Part shown: positions 5,628 through 19,645 of the stretch, one piece after another
Numbering within the stretch: position 1 is the first letter of the stretch
How the letters are laid out: each line of letters opens with the position of its first letter
From: a virus
Reading direction: 5' to 3' (one strand)
Length of the DNA: 26,103 bases
Virus record (IMG/VR): IMGVR_UViG_3300048108_000099
Span: 1 to 26,103 of that record
The notes under the pieces: model-generated
The model's input: only the letters and a program-made list of their open reading frames with translations
What the model was told of the DNA's origin: nothing
Database searches by the model: none
Translations under genes and position numbers: made by a program

Positions 5628-6239
5628 ATGGCAGAACAATTTATATTTCCTCCAGAGAAACTGGTTGGTGATTTTCGTGACTTTATCGGTGTATGGGATG
5701 GTTTCATGCCAAAAGAAATGTGTGATGATATCATTCGTAAATGTCTAGAGGCAAGACACAATAATGGTTGGATGAATGTAGACAATGGTTCTACACAGTT
5801 TCCAAGTGCTAAGTTAGGTCGTAGTGACTTTCAATACTTGTTTAATGAGCACGAGAGTCATTTATCTAATCAAGTAAGAGAATATCTAAAATGTTGTGTC
5901 TCAAGCTATGTCATTGAGTATGCTGCATTGAAACCAACAAAGATGCTTACAAATATTATTAAGTTTCAACTAACACCTCCTCGTGGTGGTTATCATGAAT
6001 GGCATTACGAAACATCATCTTATTTTGCTGCTAGTCGTGAGTTAGTATGGACAATCTATCTTAATGATATGCCTGATGGTGAAGCAGAAACAGAGTTTAT
6101 CTATCAAAAACGTAGGATTCAACCGAAGAAAGGTAGGATTGTAATCTGGCCAGCAGGATTTACTCATACACACAGAGGAAATACTGTGTTCTCACAAGAT
6201 AAATACATCTTGACAGGATGGATTCATAAAACAGTATAG
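5628..6239 (+). CDS. 2-oxoglutarate/Fe(II)-dependent oxygenase, prolyl-hydroxylase-like (203 aa)
   Basis: Predicted non-haem iron oxygenase, which uses 2-oxoglutarate and O2 to hydroxylate a substrate. Visible ligands are H126 and E128 in GGYHEWHYE (an HxE variant of the usual HxD), a distal histidine in FTHTHRG (H180 or H182), and a basic residue in DKYILTGW that could hold the cosubstrate. The ending pattern VIWPAGFTHTHRG is typical of the double-stranded beta-helix fold. Such genes are common next to fibre genes in cyanophages; the substrate is unknown, and a tail protein or a host protein are both possible. The gene starts four bases after the glycine-rich fibre gene and is probably co-transcribed with it. 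Confidence 0.82.
   Translation: MAEQFIFPPEKLVGDFRDFIGVWDGFMPKEMCDDIIRKCLEARHNNGWMNVDNGSTQFPSAKLGRSDFQYLFNEHESHLSNQVREYLKCCVSSYVIEYAALKPTKMLTNIIKFQLTPPRGGYHEWHYETSSYFAASRELVWTIYLNDMPDGEAETEFIYQKRRIQPKKGRIVIWPAGFTHTHRGNTVFSQDKYILTGWIHKTV
6198..6205 (+). promoter_or_regulatory. Possible late promoter (GATAAATA) before the APC-domain gene
   Basis: GATAAATA lies 37 bases upstream of the ATG at 6242, a sensible distance for a late promoter of that gene. It overlaps the 3' end of the oxygenase gene (codons for D-K-Y), so chance is possible. Confidence 0.4.
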
Positions 6240-9138: not shown

Positions 9139-9182
9139 AGTGTCCACTCGACCCTCCGCATGACCCCCGCACCCCTTATAAT
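9139..9182 (+). promoter_or_regulatory. Early-type promoter with upstream AGTGTCCAC element
   Basis: TATAAT is at 9177-9182, with AGTGTCCAC starting at 9139, exactly 38 bases before it. No good TTGACA lies at the usual -35 place. It drives the gene at 9208, with the predicted start of transcription near 9189. The 38-base spacing is shared with many promoters in this window. Confidence 0.65.
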
Positions 9183-9207
9183 AAAGAGGTCATCAAGGGA
9201 GCACCCA

Positions 9208-11414: not shown

Positions 11415-11528
11415 ATGAAGACATTGATACTTGATTATATCAATCAGAGTAACAATGGTAACCATGCTCAAGCAGAAGTCATCCTACACAAAATTAATAT
11501 GATGAGGAAGCTAACTGATGACAGTTAA
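11415..11528 (+). CDS. Very small hypothetical protein (37 aa)
   Basis: An ATG seven bases after the upstream stop opens a 37-codon frame, MKTLILDYINQSNNGNHAQ, ending KLTDDS. It fills an otherwise empty gap and overlaps the next ATG by 11 bases, as other gene pairs here do. Too short to recognise; it may be a translational coupler for the oxygenase. Confidence 0.45.
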   Translation: MKTLILDYINQSNNGNHAQAEVILHKINMMRKLTDDS

Positions 11529-12096
11529 TTGTATTTCAGCGTTCCCCTCTCCCATTCTACAATTTGGTGTGTCCGACTTTGCTGATCAACGTCAGCAGAT
11601 GGTGGATAACATTTACTCTGTGATGGAAACAACTGAGTCTGTCAGTCTATCAAACGAAGGTGGATGGCAGTCTCCAACTCAAGAACCACAACCAAAGGTG
11701 CTGTTTGAGAGTGTCAATGATATTATGACACAATTTCTTAATGAAGAACTACAGTACAGTATTGGTAATGTGTGGTATAATGTGAATACTGAAGGTTCAT
11801 TCAATCATAAGCATACTCATCCAGGATGTGATCTTGCTGCTGTATTCTATGTGAAAGTTCCTGAAGGTGATTGTGGTAGGCTTGAGATTGAGAATCCAAA
11901 CTACTTCAATCAAGTTAAACTACTAGATGCGATGAAACCAGACATCAAGGAGAGTATGATCGCGTTCACTTCTATGTGGTTTAATCCTATAGAAGGAACT
12001 GGTCTCATCTTCCCATCTAATCTAGTACATCGTGTATCAAAGAACAACACTCAAGAAGACAGGATTAGTATTTCATGGAACATGCACGTCAATTAA
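11518..12096 (+). CDS. 2-oxoglutarate/Fe(II) oxygenase, second type (192 aa)
   Basis: Belongs to the phage oxygenase group with an HxH-type proximal site. H99 and H101 lie in NHKHTHPGCDLAAVFYV, followed by the PEGDCGRLEIENP strand region, a distal H171 in FPSNLVHRV and R182 near the end (DRISISWNMH). These spacings fit iron ligands plus the cosubstrate arginine of the double-stranded beta-helix fold. It differs clearly from the oxygenase at 5628 and is closer to the one at 19121. The substrate is unknown. It overlaps the next start as TAATG, linking it to a secreted HEXXH protein. Confidence 0.8.
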   Translation: MTVNCISAFPSPILQFGVSDFADQRQQMVDNIYSVMETTESVSLSNEGGWQSPTQEPQPKVLFESVNDIMTQFLNEELQYSIGNVWYNVNTEGSFNHKHTHPGCDLAAVFYVKVPEGDCGRLEIENPNYFNQVKLLDAMKPDIKESMIAFTSMWFNPIEGTGLIFPSNLVHRVSKNNTQEDRISISWNMHVN

Positions 12097-12764
12097 TGCG
12101 GCAAATGATTGCTGCTGGGTTATGTTTAGGATTGTCAGGTGTAGCACTAGCTAATGAAGACAAGATCACGCAAGGGTTTAAATCATACGACGCCATGGGT
12201 TGTATGTTATTGCGTGAGTGTAAAGAGGATGTTGATGAAGTCTTCACTCTATTAGATATCTCAAATGAGTATCCGAATACAGAAGCATACACACAACACT
12301 CAGAAGAATTCAACACGATGTTGATGACACTGAATCAAATCGGTGTCAAGGTATTCCTTGCTGATTCAAAGTATTTCCCTCGTACACATCGTGGTGTCTA
12401 TCACACAGTCAGTAACAACTTCTACTTGAATCGTGATTGGATGGGTGATCCTGGTACACTGATGATGTTAATGAGACACGAAGGATGGCACGCTGCACAG
12501 GATTGTATGGCGGGAACAATTGATAATAGTATGATTGCTATTATTATGCCAGAGGATGAAGTTCCTATGCTATGGCGTGTCATGGCAGAGCGTACATATC
12601 CTGAGAATGCAGTACCATGGGAAGCAGAAGCACAATGGGCGGGTAGAACTGAACATATGACTATGAAAGCACTTCAAGCTTGTGCAAAGGGTGAAATGTG
12701 GACAGTTTATGAACCGACACCTATGACTCGTGAATGGTTGGAGATCAATGGATATATCAAATAA
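12096..12764 (+). CDS. Secreted HEXXH zinc-metallopeptidase-like protein (222 aa)
   Basis: Residues 1-19 form a signal peptide (short basic start, hydrophobic core AAGLCLGLSG, then ALA before NE), so the mature protein should leave the cytoplasm. Residues 128-132 read HEGWH, a perfect HEXXH zinc-protease motif in the helix LMMLMRHEGWHAAQD. E176 or E178 in PWEAEAQW, about 45 residues on, could be the third ligand as in gluzincins. Four cysteines (36, 42, 137, 196) could form disulfides. I chose the ATG at 12096, which overlaps the upstream stop as TAATG and begins the signal peptide; an ATG at 12075 would spoil it. Target unknown; periplasmic or envelope action is inferred. Confidence 0.65.
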   Translation: MRQMIAAGLCLGLSGVALANEDKITQGFKSYDAMGCMLLRECKEDVDEVFTLLDISNEYPNTEAYTQHSEEFNTMLMTLNQIGVKVFLADSKYFPRTHRGVYHTVSNNFYLNRDWMGDPGTLMMLMRHEGWHAAQDCMAGTIDNSMIAIIMPEDEVPMLWRVMAERTYPENAVPWEAEAQWAGRTEHMTMKALQACAKGEMWTVYEPTPMTREWLEINGYIK

Positions 12765-13023
12765 GCAAAAACTCATTGTACTTACTCACAAATATGGTTC
12801 AGAAAACGACCTCTACGTTGAAATCCCGCAAACCATCCGCGAAGAACTCGACTGGAAAGAAGGTGACACGCTCATCTGGGAAATCAAAGGCGACAACAGT
12901 ATCGTCATTAGAAAAGAACTTAGCGTCTCTGAATACAAAGAGCAAGCAATCAGGGAACACATCGAAGACCAAGACTTCGACTCGTACTACGACTGGATCT
13001 ACCAAAGCTGCTTCGAGTCGTAA
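12748..13023 (+). CDS. AbrB/MazE-type swapped-hairpin protein (91 aa)
   Basis: Residues 21-57 show the swapped-hairpin DNA-binding pattern: DLYVEIPQTIREELDWKEGD, then TLIWEIKGDNSIVIRK. Known members are transcription regulators or antitoxins; no toxin gene is seen beside it. The C-terminal 30 residues are acidic and aromatic. The start at 12748 overlaps the end of the HEXXH gene by 17 bases. Codon use favours C-ending codons (ATC, GAC, CGC), unlike the AT-rich neighbours, which suggests recent acquisition. Its 3' end runs into the presumed 5' end of the next gene. Confidence 0.7.
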   Translation: MDISNKQKLIVLTHKYGSENDLYVEIPQTIREELDWKEGDTLIWEIKGDNSIVIRKELSVSEYKEQAIREHIEDQDFDSYYDWIYQSCFES

Positions 13024-15387: not shown

Positions 15388-15430
15388 AGTGTCCACCATT
15401 CCACCCACTGTCCCCATCATCCCTTATAAT
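15388..15430 (+). promoter_or_regulatory. Early-type promoter with AGTGTCCAC element, leaderless
   Basis: TATAAT is at 15425-15430, with AGTGTCCAC from 15388 (37 bases before it). Six bases after the -10 comes the ATG at 15437, so transcription should start on or next to the A of the start codon. Confidence 0.68.
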
Positions 15431-15436
15431 AAAGAC

Positions 15437-15697
15437 ATGAACAACTTCACAGACTTTATCGACTATGTTTTCTCATTTTATGGAGATGACGGTCTCTACG
15501 ATCAAAAGCGTACAAAGGAGCAAATTGCCTTTGCCCTTGTTACTTATCTTGACGAGTGTAACGACACTATGTCATGGGGTGACGGTGACAGTCTAGACCG
15601 TGAGAGGGTCAGGGATTACATGAACGACATTTATGGTCCAGTGCCTGTGATCGCTCATCCCCATCATTTCACAGATGGCGTGAAAATCCTTAGCTGA
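15437..15697 (+). CDS. Early protein of unknown function (86 aa), probably leaderless mRNA
   Basis: Begins MNNFTDFIDYVFSFYGDDGL. It has a helical first half with an aromatic patch, then TYLDECNDTMSWGDGDSLDR and a His/Pro-rich end (PVIAHPHHF). Not recognised. The start at 15437 rather than 15389 is chosen because the latter lies upstream of the -10 box. It is the first of a series of small GC-richer genes, each with its own promoter. Confidence 0.68.
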   Translation: MNNFTDFIDYVFSFYGDDGLYDQKRTKEQIAFALVTYLDECNDTMSWGDGDSLDRERVRDYMNDIYGPVPVIAHPHHFTDGVKILS

Positions 15698-15713: not shown

Positions 15714-15757
15714 AGTGGCACACATGGGGTCGCAATGGTCACCCCATGCCCTATAAT
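15714..15757 (+). promoter_or_regulatory. Early-type promoter with AGTGGCAC element and internal dyad, leaderless
   Basis: TATAAT is at 15752-15757 and AGTGGCAC starts at 15714, exactly 38 bases before it. Between them lies a perfect 8-bp inverted repeat, CATGGGGT (15723-15730) and ACCCCATG (15741-15748). The ATG at 15764 is six bases after the -10, so the mRNA should be leaderless. Confidence 0.7.
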
Positions 15758-15763
15758 TAAGAC

Positions 15764-15961
15764 ATGAACAAAACAACTTACTACGTCGCTTGCCCTGCTT
15801 TAGGTGAGTCCGAGACCACGACCGATCTAGACCGAGCAATGGACCTTTGCTATTCCATGCATGATGAATCCAATTCTTATGCATACATCCGTGACTCAAT
15901 AGGCGAGATCGTCGGTGAGTATGGTGACATCATGGAAGCAGTTGAGCAAGGGATCATCTGA
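15764..15961 (+). CDS. Early protein of unknown function (65 aa), probably leaderless mRNA
   Basis: Begins MNKTTYYVACPALGESETTT: a strand, a DLDRAMDLCYSMHDE helix, and strands with YAYIRDSIGEIVGEY, ending in an acidic helix. A compact alpha/beta miniprotein. Not recognised. It has its own promoter and is followed at once by the next. Confidence 0.68.
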   Translation: MNKTTYYVACPALGESETTTDLDRAMDLCYSMHDESNSYAYIRDSIGEIVGEYGDIMEAVEQGII

Positions 15962-16225: not shown

Positions 16226-16269
16226 AGTGGCACTGGGTGGGTTGCAAGGTCCATCCGATGCCCTATAAT
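16226..16269 (+). promoter_or_regulatory. Early-type promoter with AGTGGCAC element
   Basis: TATAAT is at 16264-16269 and AGTGGCAC starts at 16226, exactly 38 bases before it; TTGCAA at 16242-16247 gives a 16-base spacer. Transcription should begin near 16276 in AACAT. The leader to the ATG at 16299 is CA-rich. Confidence 0.7.
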
Positions 16270-16298
16270 AAGAACATACCAAACAACACACATCACAC

Positions 16299-16612: not shown

Positions 16613-16656
16613 AGTGGCACAGAGGGTGCTGACAAGCACCCGCCATCCTCTATAAT
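16613..16656 (+). promoter_or_regulatory. Early-type promoter with AGTGGCAC element and internal dyad
   Basis: TATAAT is at 16651-16656 and AGTGGCAC starts at 16613, exactly 38 bases before it. A perfect dyad, GGGTGC (16624-16629) and GCACCC (16636-16641), lies between; its loop TGACAA overlaps the -35 position. It drives the DUF3574-like and HicA-like pair. Confidence 0.7.
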
Positions 16657-16684
16657 AAGAACATACATCACACAGCATCACATC

Positions 16685-17277: not shown

Positions 17278-17499
17278 ATGCAAACAACTTGGGCAGTTCA
17301 GCCAGCAGCATTCGCAAATTTTGATGAGCACGGCTGCATCTATTGCGCCACCATCGACACAGCGTACAGAATCGCAGCTCAGCAGGACGGCGATCAAATG
17401 ATCTACCGCATCAACAACAACACGACCCCCATCAAATGGGTCAGGGTATATGCAGGAGAAGCAGCTGTGACAGCTCAGGAACTGTCCCACCTCGTATAG
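17278..17499 (+). CDS. Small early protein (73 aa)
   Basis: Begins MQTTWAVQPAAFANFDEHGC. It continues with strands (CIYCATIDTAYRIAAQ) and KWVRVYAGEAAVTAQELSHL. The regular hydrophobic spacing suggests a small beta protein. Not recognised. Its 3' part contains the ACTGTCCCAC element of the next promoter, so this regulatory signal is embedded in coding sequence. Confidence 0.66.
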   Translation: MQTTWAVQPAAFANFDEHGCIYCATIDTAYRIAAQQDGDQMIYRINNNTTPIKWVRVYAGEAAVTAQELSHLV

Positions 17500-17524
17500 A
17501 CTTCGCCTCATCATCCCCTATAAT
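17481..17524 (+). promoter_or_regulatory. Early-type promoter with ACTGTCCCAC element, leaderless
   Basis: TATAAT is at 17519-17524 and ACTGTCCCAC starts at 17481, exactly 38 bases before it. Six bases (AAGGAC) separate the -10 from the ATG at 17531, predicting a leaderless mRNA. Confidence 0.66.
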
Positions 17525-17530
17525 AAGGAC

Positions 17531-17728
17531 ATGACAAACAAACTCACCAAATCTTCAGACGGCATGTTCTTACACAATGAGAACCCCTCCCCTCTCATGC
17601 AGAAGGTCATGGACAACATCCGCCAACAGATGGCAGCAGAGCAGACACACCGTGAAAGGGTAAGAGCAGGACTAGAACCTGCCAACGGTGGACAGATCAC
17701 GTACTGGAACATCAGCGACAGACACTGA
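17531..17728 (+). CDS. Small early protein (65 aa), probably leaderless mRNA
   Basis: Begins MTNKLTKSSDGMFLHNENPS and continues with a helix (MQKVMDNIRQQMAAEQTHRE), ending TYWNISDRH. A charged helical miniprotein. Not recognised. Promoter spacing places the transcription start on the start codon. It is followed closely by another promoter. Confidence 0.66.
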   Translation: MTNKLTKSSDGMFLHNENPSPLMQKVMDNIRQQMAAEQTHRERVRAGLEPANGGQITYWNISDRH

Positions 17729-17747
17729 CCTCATCTCCCTCTATAAT
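17703..17747 (+). promoter_or_regulatory. Early-type promoter (CTATAATTAAGACATC)
   Basis: TATAAT at 17742-17747 is in the same core context as the other early promoters. A weak match to the upstream element, ACTGGAAC, starts at 17703 (39 bases before). It drives the gene at 17772 through a CA-rich leader. Confidence 0.6.
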
Positions 17748-17771
17748 TAAGACATCAATCACACATCACAC

Positions 17772-18504: not shown

Positions 18505-18598
18505 GGATTACGAGACTGTGGGACAGACCCTCGATTATCTTCACAATAATGTCGAAGGTATCAAGCAAGATTTACTAAACGTTGCGAGAGCAGTATAA
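18368..18598 (+). CDS. Small coiled-coil protein of the late region (76 aa)
   Basis: The ATG at 18368 has a Shine-Dalgarno-like GAGAGGTGAT just upstream, which selects it over GTG at 18359. Residues 1-35 form a coiled coil (MKDELMERLNELERT, then SERLNSLEQRISQLE). After a YKRPTGEDYETVG segment comes a second helix (TLDYLHNNVEGIKQDLLNV). It overlaps the preceding gene by 137 bases and the PAAR-like gene as TAATG. Probably a small oligomeric structural or assembly protein. Confidence 0.65.
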   Translation: MKDELMERLNELERTCLWQSERLNSLEQRISQLESPSLMYKRPTGEDYETVGQTLDYLHNNVEGIKQDLLNVARAV

Positions 18599-18972
18599 TG
18601 CCATTTATAGCAGGACCAGAGACGGTTGACACACCGAGTACAGATGGAAACTGTACATATCCTGCAGCGCCCCTAGGAGGGACTCCATACCCAACGAAAG
18701 TTGTTGCGAAGGGCGTTCCCTTAGTAATCTATGATAACCTCTCTATACCTGCTCCTGTGGCAGGTGTAAAGATCAACCCATTAATTCCAGCACCATGCCA
18801 ACCAGGACAGAGGGTTATACGACCAACTGTAAACACGACTGTGTTTATTAATGGCAGGTTACCTGCGGTGACTGGGGATGAAGCTCAGTTAGTGATAGGA
18901 GGATCACCTAGGCCCTTGACAGGACCGTTCCAACATCCTACAATAGTAATTGGTTCAAATCTTATAACGTAA
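18598..18972 (+). CDS. PAAR-like baseplate spike-tip protein (124 aa)
   Basis: The repeated short strands with Pro/Gly turns and VFINGRLPAVTGDEAQL, followed by GGSPRPLTG and IVIGS, resemble PAAR-repeat proteins that cap the central spike of contractile tails (T4 gp5.4). Repetition of NG and GS turns fits the conical beta fold. It sits among baseplate genes behind a late promoter. Candidate metal ligands are not obvious apart from H113 in FQHPT and cysteines 19 and 67. Family-level call good, ortholog call moderate. Confidence 0.68.
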   Translation: MPFIAGPETVDTPSTDGNCTYPAAPLGGTPYPTKVVAKGVPLVIYDNLSIPAPVAGVKINPLIPAPCQPGQRVIRPTVNTTVFINGRLPAVTGDEAQLVIGGSPRPLTGPFQHPTIVIGSNLIT

Positions 18973-18974
18973 GT

Positions 18975-19121
18975 ATGGCGAAGATCAAAGCATCATTAAG
19001 TGGGCAATCATTTGTCGAAGCGATTCCGAAGAGGAGTCGTCAAGGCACTGGAAAGCACACGAAGTATTCAGCAACATCTAGGAACAAAGCAAAGAAGAGG
19101 TATCGCGGTCAAGGCAAGTAA
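18975..19121 (+). CDS. Short basic cyanophage protein (48 aa)
   Basis: Begins MAKIKASLSGQSFVEAIPKR and ends in a strongly basic tail (NKAKKRYRGQGK). I have seen proteins like this in the structural region of cyanomyoviruses; the function is unknown. Strong positive charge suggests nucleic-acid contact or packing inside the virion. The stop overlaps the next ATG by one base (TAATG). Confidence 0.7.
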   Translation: MAKIKASLSGQSFVEAIPKRSRQGTGKHTKYSATSRNKAKKRYRGQGK

Positions 19122-19645
19122 TGTCTGAGTACATCGAACCAATGTTTGCAGTCCCAATCTTTCATCTTTATACGGAGGATTGGGATAGCAAGAAAGAAGC
19201 TTTGCTTGACTTATCGAGAGCACAGGAATTCAAGAAAGATGTAGGTGAGTATGTTCCAAGTGACTTCAGAACACCTAAGGTAAAATGGGAAGTCATTGAA
19301 CCTTTAATCAGAGATGAATTACAGAAGTTCAAAGATCAAGTCAAGATTGATTTGCAGGTTGATGCATATTGGTTTGAGAAAGGTGGTAAAGGTGATCAGC
19401 ATTTATTGCATAATCACGGAGCTACGGGATTTAGTGCGGTAATGTATATCGAATACGATCCAGAGGAGCATACACCGACTCAGTTTGTGTGTCCTTTCAA
19501 TAATGTGATAGGGTGGGTAGATATATACTCACCCAGAGATATACAAAGTGGTTCGGTAATATTCTTCCCATCCTTTGTACATCACTACACATTACCTTGT
19601 AAGAGTGACAAAGAACGTCTGGTACTTTCTTGGAATATGAAATGA
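19121..19645 (+). CDS. 2-oxoglutarate/Fe(II) oxygenase, third copy type (174 aa)
   Basis: Putative non-haem iron oxygenase with H97 and H99 in HLLHNHGATGFSAVMYI, a distal H154/H155 in FFPSFVHHYTLP and R166 in ERLVLSWNM. The order matches the HxH-type phage oxygenases, as in the gene at 11518 (both end in SWNM), but the sequences are well diverged. It lies inside the baseplate operon, so hydroxylation of a virion protein is a tempting inference. Overlaps its neighbours as TAATG and ATGA. Confidence 0.78.
   Translation: MSEYIEPMFAVPIFHLYTEDWDSKKEALLDLSRAQEFKKDVGEYVPSDFRTPKVKWEVIEPLIRDELQKFKDQVKIDLQVDAYWFEKGGKGDQHLLHNHGATGFSAVMYIEYDPEEHTPTQFVCPFNNVIGWVDIYSPRDIQSGSVIFFPSFVHHYTLPCKSDKERLVLSWNMK

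Follow-up and report, generated by a model that had tools for sequence, protein, structure and literature searches.

Predicted exported zinc metallopeptidase in a widespread protein family of T4-like cyanophages

A gene of a T4-like cyanophage (12075..12764, plus strand) raises the question of what a phage would do with a protein that appears to leave the host cytoplasm and that carries the HExxH motif, a motif known from metallopeptidases and also found in non-peptidase enzymes. The stretch of DNA analysed (26,103 nucleotides; positions 1 to 26,103 of IMG/VR record IMGVR_UViG_3300048108_000099; referred to as the window) is a T4-like cyanophage fragment that encodes baseplate wedge proteins, the larger of which showed 80% identity to its counterpart in Synechococcus phage S-B43, and no match to Rfam was detected anywhere in the window. 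The original prediction had taken the protein for a zinc metallopeptidase working outside the cytoplasm. We consider it probable that the protein is an exported gluzincin-like zinc metallopeptidase of the host periplasm or thylakoid lumen, a reading that is predicted as a whole: the signal peptide, the invariant HExxH and glutamate, the likely zincin-like fold, and purifying selection all spoke for it, while zinc and activity are what we infer from them.

Gene start and predicted export signal

Translation from the ATG at 12096, the start adopted in the original prediction, gives 222 amino acid residues, and translation from the ATG at 12075 gives 229, with the stop at 12764 in both cases. Since only the first of these two codons, the ATG at 12075, is present in the closest relative (locus L002; 94% identical), the gene probably starts at 12075, with 12096 as the less likely start; this choice is in line with the open reading frame list and with a full-length match to the phrog_591 profile (see below). 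An AGGA sequence is located approximately 10 nt upstream of 12075, and from this start the gene overlaps the upstream oxygenase gene by 22 nt. Residues are numbered here with the ATG at 12096 as M1.

The N-terminus, MEHARQLMRQMIAAGLCLGLSGVALA/NED, is built like a Sec signal peptide (12075..12152, +) with a putative cut after VALA, and was the most hydrophobic N-terminus among the 30 open reading frames of the window examined. Of 68 IMG/VR homologs, 67 had a comparable hydrophobic stretch at the beginning of the protein, in most cases with an AxA-like site after it, the sole exception being a truncated start call. In an alignment of 63 sequences, the mean identity was 30% in the signal region vs 65% in the mature part; since the hydrophobic property is conserved while the sequence itself drifts freely, this region was read as a signal peptide. 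The family-level tests supported the originally proposed signal peptide, here predicted to be of the Sec type, and the protein probably leaves the cytoplasm of the infected cyanobacterium.

The four cysteines previously pointed out were all found in the mature part: C36 and C42 (12201..12221), a pair conserved in 63/63 and 62/63 sequences, respectively, that may form a disulfide, together with C137 and C196. C196 (12681..12683), invariant in phages and host relatives, is the likely disulfide partner of C137. A fifth, C10, belongs to the signal peptide and varies among the homologs. Lipid attachment at C10 was ruled out because this residue is preceded by AGL, with no lipobox, and is not conserved.

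Active-site signature and predicted fold

The HExxH motif by itself is weak evidence, since it occurred by chance in 253/20,000 shuffles of the protein. In contrast, the residues invariant in 63/63 diverse homologs (C36, G100, Y102, N107, R127, H128, E129, W131, H132, Q135, D136, C137, G140, E176, E178, A179, A182, and C196) provide, at the level of sequence, strong evidence. They include the H, E, W, and H of H128-E129-G130-W131-H132 (12477..12491), directly preceded by R127; the motif extension Q135-D136-C137 (12498..12506); and E176 and E178 (12621..12629). The core common to all of 20 sequences from phages and cyanobacteria was HExxHxxQDCxxG ... ExxA ... C. E178 was replaced by Gln in one Prochlorococcus protein, whereas E176 was unchanged in phage and host relatives, and E176 is therefore favored as the third zinc ligand. 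The pairwise dN/dS values of 0.11-0.21 showed that the family is kept by purifying selection.

The same 63-sequence alignment was used as the input for AlphaFold2, and the resulting model (pLDDT 90, pTM 0.85) placed HExxH within a long helix (residues 119-138) and E176/E178 within a second helix (174-183). The helical HEGWH and the plausible third glutamate of the original prediction were thus both borne out by the model. When the phage model was compared with the PDB by Foldseek, no match reached an E value below 0.001, but zincins made up most of the highest-ranked entries; a sequence search of the PDB with the protein yielded no relevant match. In VIA-align, the best neighbor was IrrE (3dte; Z 5.9 over 85 residues, 3.1 A), a score that can be compatible with a chance arrangement, followed by PprI (Z 5.8), M34 (5.3), ArdC (5.1), and SprT (4.1), with PPEP and selecase under 4. 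A separate prediction for a Crocosphaera relative (pLDDT 81.5) aligned better with IrrE (Z 8.5 over 93 residues, 3.5 A), M34 (6.7), ArdC (6.4), and PPEP (5.5). A zincin fold is likely for the phage protein because the two models agree on one fold class and the motif is present, the scores being middling singly and the alignments behind the two models sharing sequences, so that they are not fully independent. Like the solved gluzincin-like folds (IrrE/PprI, ArdC, M34 peptidases, PPEP, SprT, and selecase), with which it aligns in part, the phage model has an HExxH helix and a downstream helix; on the other hand, no sequence relation to them was found, their lengths differ, and for most of them the cell location differs as well.

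These neighbors also included an HExxH oxygenase domain (8s5f; Z 4.5), and some HExxH proteins reportedly catalyze oxidative chemistry (PMC12636437). The protein may, then, have a zincin-like fold and be no peptidase, functioning as another HExxH metalloenzyme (e.g. an α-ketoglutarate-dependent HExxH oxygenase) or as a binding protein. In agreement with this, the sequence reached no peptidase family: no Pfam or NCBIfam peptidase family was above the cut-off for the window protein or the host relatives, and the sub-cut-off similarities to Peptidase_M76, DUF6782, and SprT-like (E 0.0006-0.002, around HExxH) were those of the cellular relatives, with no match from the window protein itself. However, E129, the catalytic base in peptidases, is invariant, the structural neighbors are mostly peptidases or peptidase-like, and a 2-oxoglutarate-dependent enzyme would be ill suited to an exported location. 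A role other than that of a peptidase is therefore regarded as unlikely.

The phage family and its cyanobacterial relatives

The protein matched the profile of PHROG family 591 over its full length (E 6.1e-119; profile 5-225 of 226) and that of phrog_16003 more weakly. Relatives were detected by tblastn in 366 phage records (301 Synechococcus phage, 61 cyanophage, and 4 Prochlorococcus phage). Since a gp6 baseplate query matched 373 Synechococcus and 61 cyanophage records, the gene is found in roughly five in six such records, a share that counts records, including many near-duplicate isolates, and not species. Judging from these matches, the family is present in most Synechococcus T4-like phages. 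In the original prediction, phage-encoded exported proteases other than lysis or head-maturation enzymes were called rarely described; the present gene is not peculiar to one phage but belongs to a widespread cyanophage family with host relatives.

Published annotations name the family members T4-GC_944 or T4-GC_945 and, in syn9, gp219, and PHROG lists the function as unknown; the signal peptide, motif, and cysteines are common to these proteins and that of the window, and nothing essential differs. Two records, S-SCSM1 and RB11-B, name family members "proteolytic enzyme", and neither this term nor "protease" is used in the S-SCSM1 paper. A literature search for the phrog_591/gp219 family, also by way of HExxH proteins in cyanobacteria and phages, found no study of it; the family is thus catalogued already, with its function undescribed in the literature found. 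From ocean metagenomes, a large-scale study predicted numerous ORFans with HExxH, and the target family is not identified in its passages on them (PMC4508852). In the account of Synechococcus-enriched phage genes in PMC3037559, the virion protein of that set is given as T4-GC969 and not as 944/945, which, if these two belong to the set, counts against a place of the protein in the virion.

PHROG 16003 (S-CAM7, MA01, RN05-S, and S-CRES3, with PSS2 more distant) likewise consists mostly of exported proteins with RHExxHxxQDCxxG ... ExEA ... C, but these are shorter than the window protein, have neither the C36/C42 segment nor the C-terminal extension, differ in their cysteines, and show approximately 20% identity. 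In some phages, a divergent second paralog with a signal peptide and RHExWHAAQDC was located a short distance from the main copy, on its upstream or its downstream side (L034:6558-7226, L126:4002-4676, L134:4005-4676, and L135:130-801).

A scan of approximately 85,000 species genomes for HExxHxxQDCxxG as a DNA pattern, in which many chance frames were discarded on the basis of their open reading frames, yielded proteins of the same layout in Crocosphaera, Synechococcus, Vulcanococcus, Prochlorococcus, and Aphanocapsa feldmannii. By their shared signature (HExxHxxQDCxxG...ExEA...C), these proteins and the phage family form a cyanobacterial superfamily without a name. The core signature is common to its members and the window protein, and a hydrophobic N-terminus is usual; they differ in the low identity (approximately 20%) and in the apparent absence of a signal peptide from the Prochlorococcus proteins, and their function is undescribed. 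Using the superfamily profile, 102/121 sampled genomes of the family of Synechococcus WH7803 were positive, and WH7803 itself contained five matches, the weakest without the QDC cysteine. A widespread cyanobacterial HExxH family is thereby exposed, the role of which is testable. One WH7803 relative (L286:2273-2785) is flanked by the gene of an S41/PDZ peptidase (CtpA-like) on one side and by that of an Mfd-like helicase on the other.

None of eight non-cyanobacterial control genomes was positive with this profile. A ninth, that of Nonlabens, was positive only on a contig with a T4-like baseplate gene (L209; N. xiamenensis NZ_RMVE01000006.1, 188 kb, from a Flavobacteriaceae isolate assembly); this contig, which also carries the target family, is probably phage DNA from a cyanophage contaminant. 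Homologs listed under "Bacteroidetes" (L208 and L238) were rejected as bacterial and treated as cyanophage DNA, a decision made from their sequence only.

The narrower phrog_591 profile matched only 1/244 cyanobacterial genomes at E 1e-5, indicating a phage branch that is both old and separate. In the tree, the A. feldmannii protein, which was on a long branch, formed a group (99/95) with phrog_591 and the divergent phage paralog, and one common origin for all the phage copies was not rejected (AU p 0.225). The A. feldmannii gene looks chromosomal because its neighbors encode acetyl-CoA synthetase and a HAD hydrolase. The phage gene is probably a captured host gene of old cyanobacterial ancestry, a direction of transfer that these sequence relations suggest.

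Genome neighborhood and possible site of action

Translational coupling to an oxygenase was part of the original prediction. The overlap itself was confirmed, whereas a conserved link was absent: an oxygenase gene was located within 300 nt upstream of the target in only 3/163 loci (the window, L002, and L009), and the tight join was limited to the window and its nearest relative. In S-CAM4, an oxygenase gene was approximately 180 nt upstream, and in ACG-2014j there was none at this position. Functional coupling to the 2-oxoglutarate oxygenase was ruled out on these counts, and the overlap appears to be incidental in terms of gene order. The window contains three different 2OG-Fe(II) oxygenase genes in 26 kb (5628-6239, 11518-12096, and 19121-19645).

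Since Sec signals of cyanobacteria may also direct proteins to the thylakoid lumen, the protein may have its substrates there during infection, namely photosystem or lumenal proteins, and serve as an auxiliary protease with a link to the phage psbA and psbD. In syn9, the gene directly follows psbA-psbD; S-MbCM6 and P-TIM40 also carry it in their psbA region, Bellamy has petE and PTOX close to it, and in 9/14 IMG/VR loci showing psbD it was located within 300 nt after that gene. However, other lineages place it next to gp5 (directly upstream in S-SSM5, S-RIM2, and S-SM1) or elsewhere, and according to PMC3037559, Synechococcus-enriched phage genes have four hot-spots, among them the gp5 region and the psbA region, the latter receiving such genes of all kinds. 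Because the position varies and both regions are hot-spots, the neighborhood says little about function. A lumenal role linked to photosynthesis appears improbable. A virion-associated or lysis peptidase, which, like the tail lysozyme or spanins, would attack the envelope during entry or when infection ends, is even less likely, since not all lineages keep the gene upstream of gp5, which encodes the baseplate hub with tail lysozyme, cleaved Sec signals are not normal in virion proteins, and up to five superfamily matches occur in host cells.

For the exported metallopeptidase that we prefer, the host Sec machinery would carry the protein across the plasma or thylakoid membrane during infection, and signal peptidase would remove the N-terminus after VALA, as the sequence suggests. 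In the oxidizing compartment beyond, C137 and C196, and probably also C36 and C42, would form disulfides. From the invariant residues and the fold, H128, H132, and E176 would be expected to hold zinc, and E129 to activate water for the cleavage of a peptide bond. The leading guess for the substrate is a host periplasmic or envelope protein, in which case the phage would adjust the host envelope with a host-type tool. Envelope proteins, phage receptors, and competitors, the targets originally suggested, are speculative. The phage family is related to a long-standing cyanobacterial family whose HExxH proteins are small and mostly exported, and within T4-like cyanophages it has followed a separate path.

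In the sea, Synechococcus and its T4-like phages occur in large numbers, and a common, selected gene with an intact catalytic signature, the product of which is predicted outside the cytoplasm, hints at proteolytic control of the envelope or lumen in infection. More tentatively, and with the balance somewhat against it, most marine Synechococcus T4-like phages may send a host-type metallopeptidase to the periplasm or lumen, where proteins of the host surface or of photosynthesis would be recut, while the hosts may use their expanded peptidase family for related jobs. If true, this would be a layer of infected-cell control beyond the cytoplasm, of which no description was found in the literature.

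Several other features of the window were observed. At the end of the target gene, a MazE/AbrB-type antitoxin-like protein is encoded (12751-13023; Pfam E 2e-9), and a homolog of it was present within 300 nt downstream of the target in 13/163 loci. A 124-amino-acid Gly/Pro-rich protein near the baseplate genes (18598-18972), with no Pfam match, resembled a PAAR spike tip by eye. In a repeated element with the core CCCTATAATAAGGACATG (9161-9196, 15409-15444, 15714-15771, 16226-16277, 16613-16664, 17481-17538, and 17726-17761), a TATAAT-like box is combined with an AAGGA-like site, and several small genes have their start codons only a few bases further on; if TATAAT is a promoter box, the transcripts would begin almost at the ATG.
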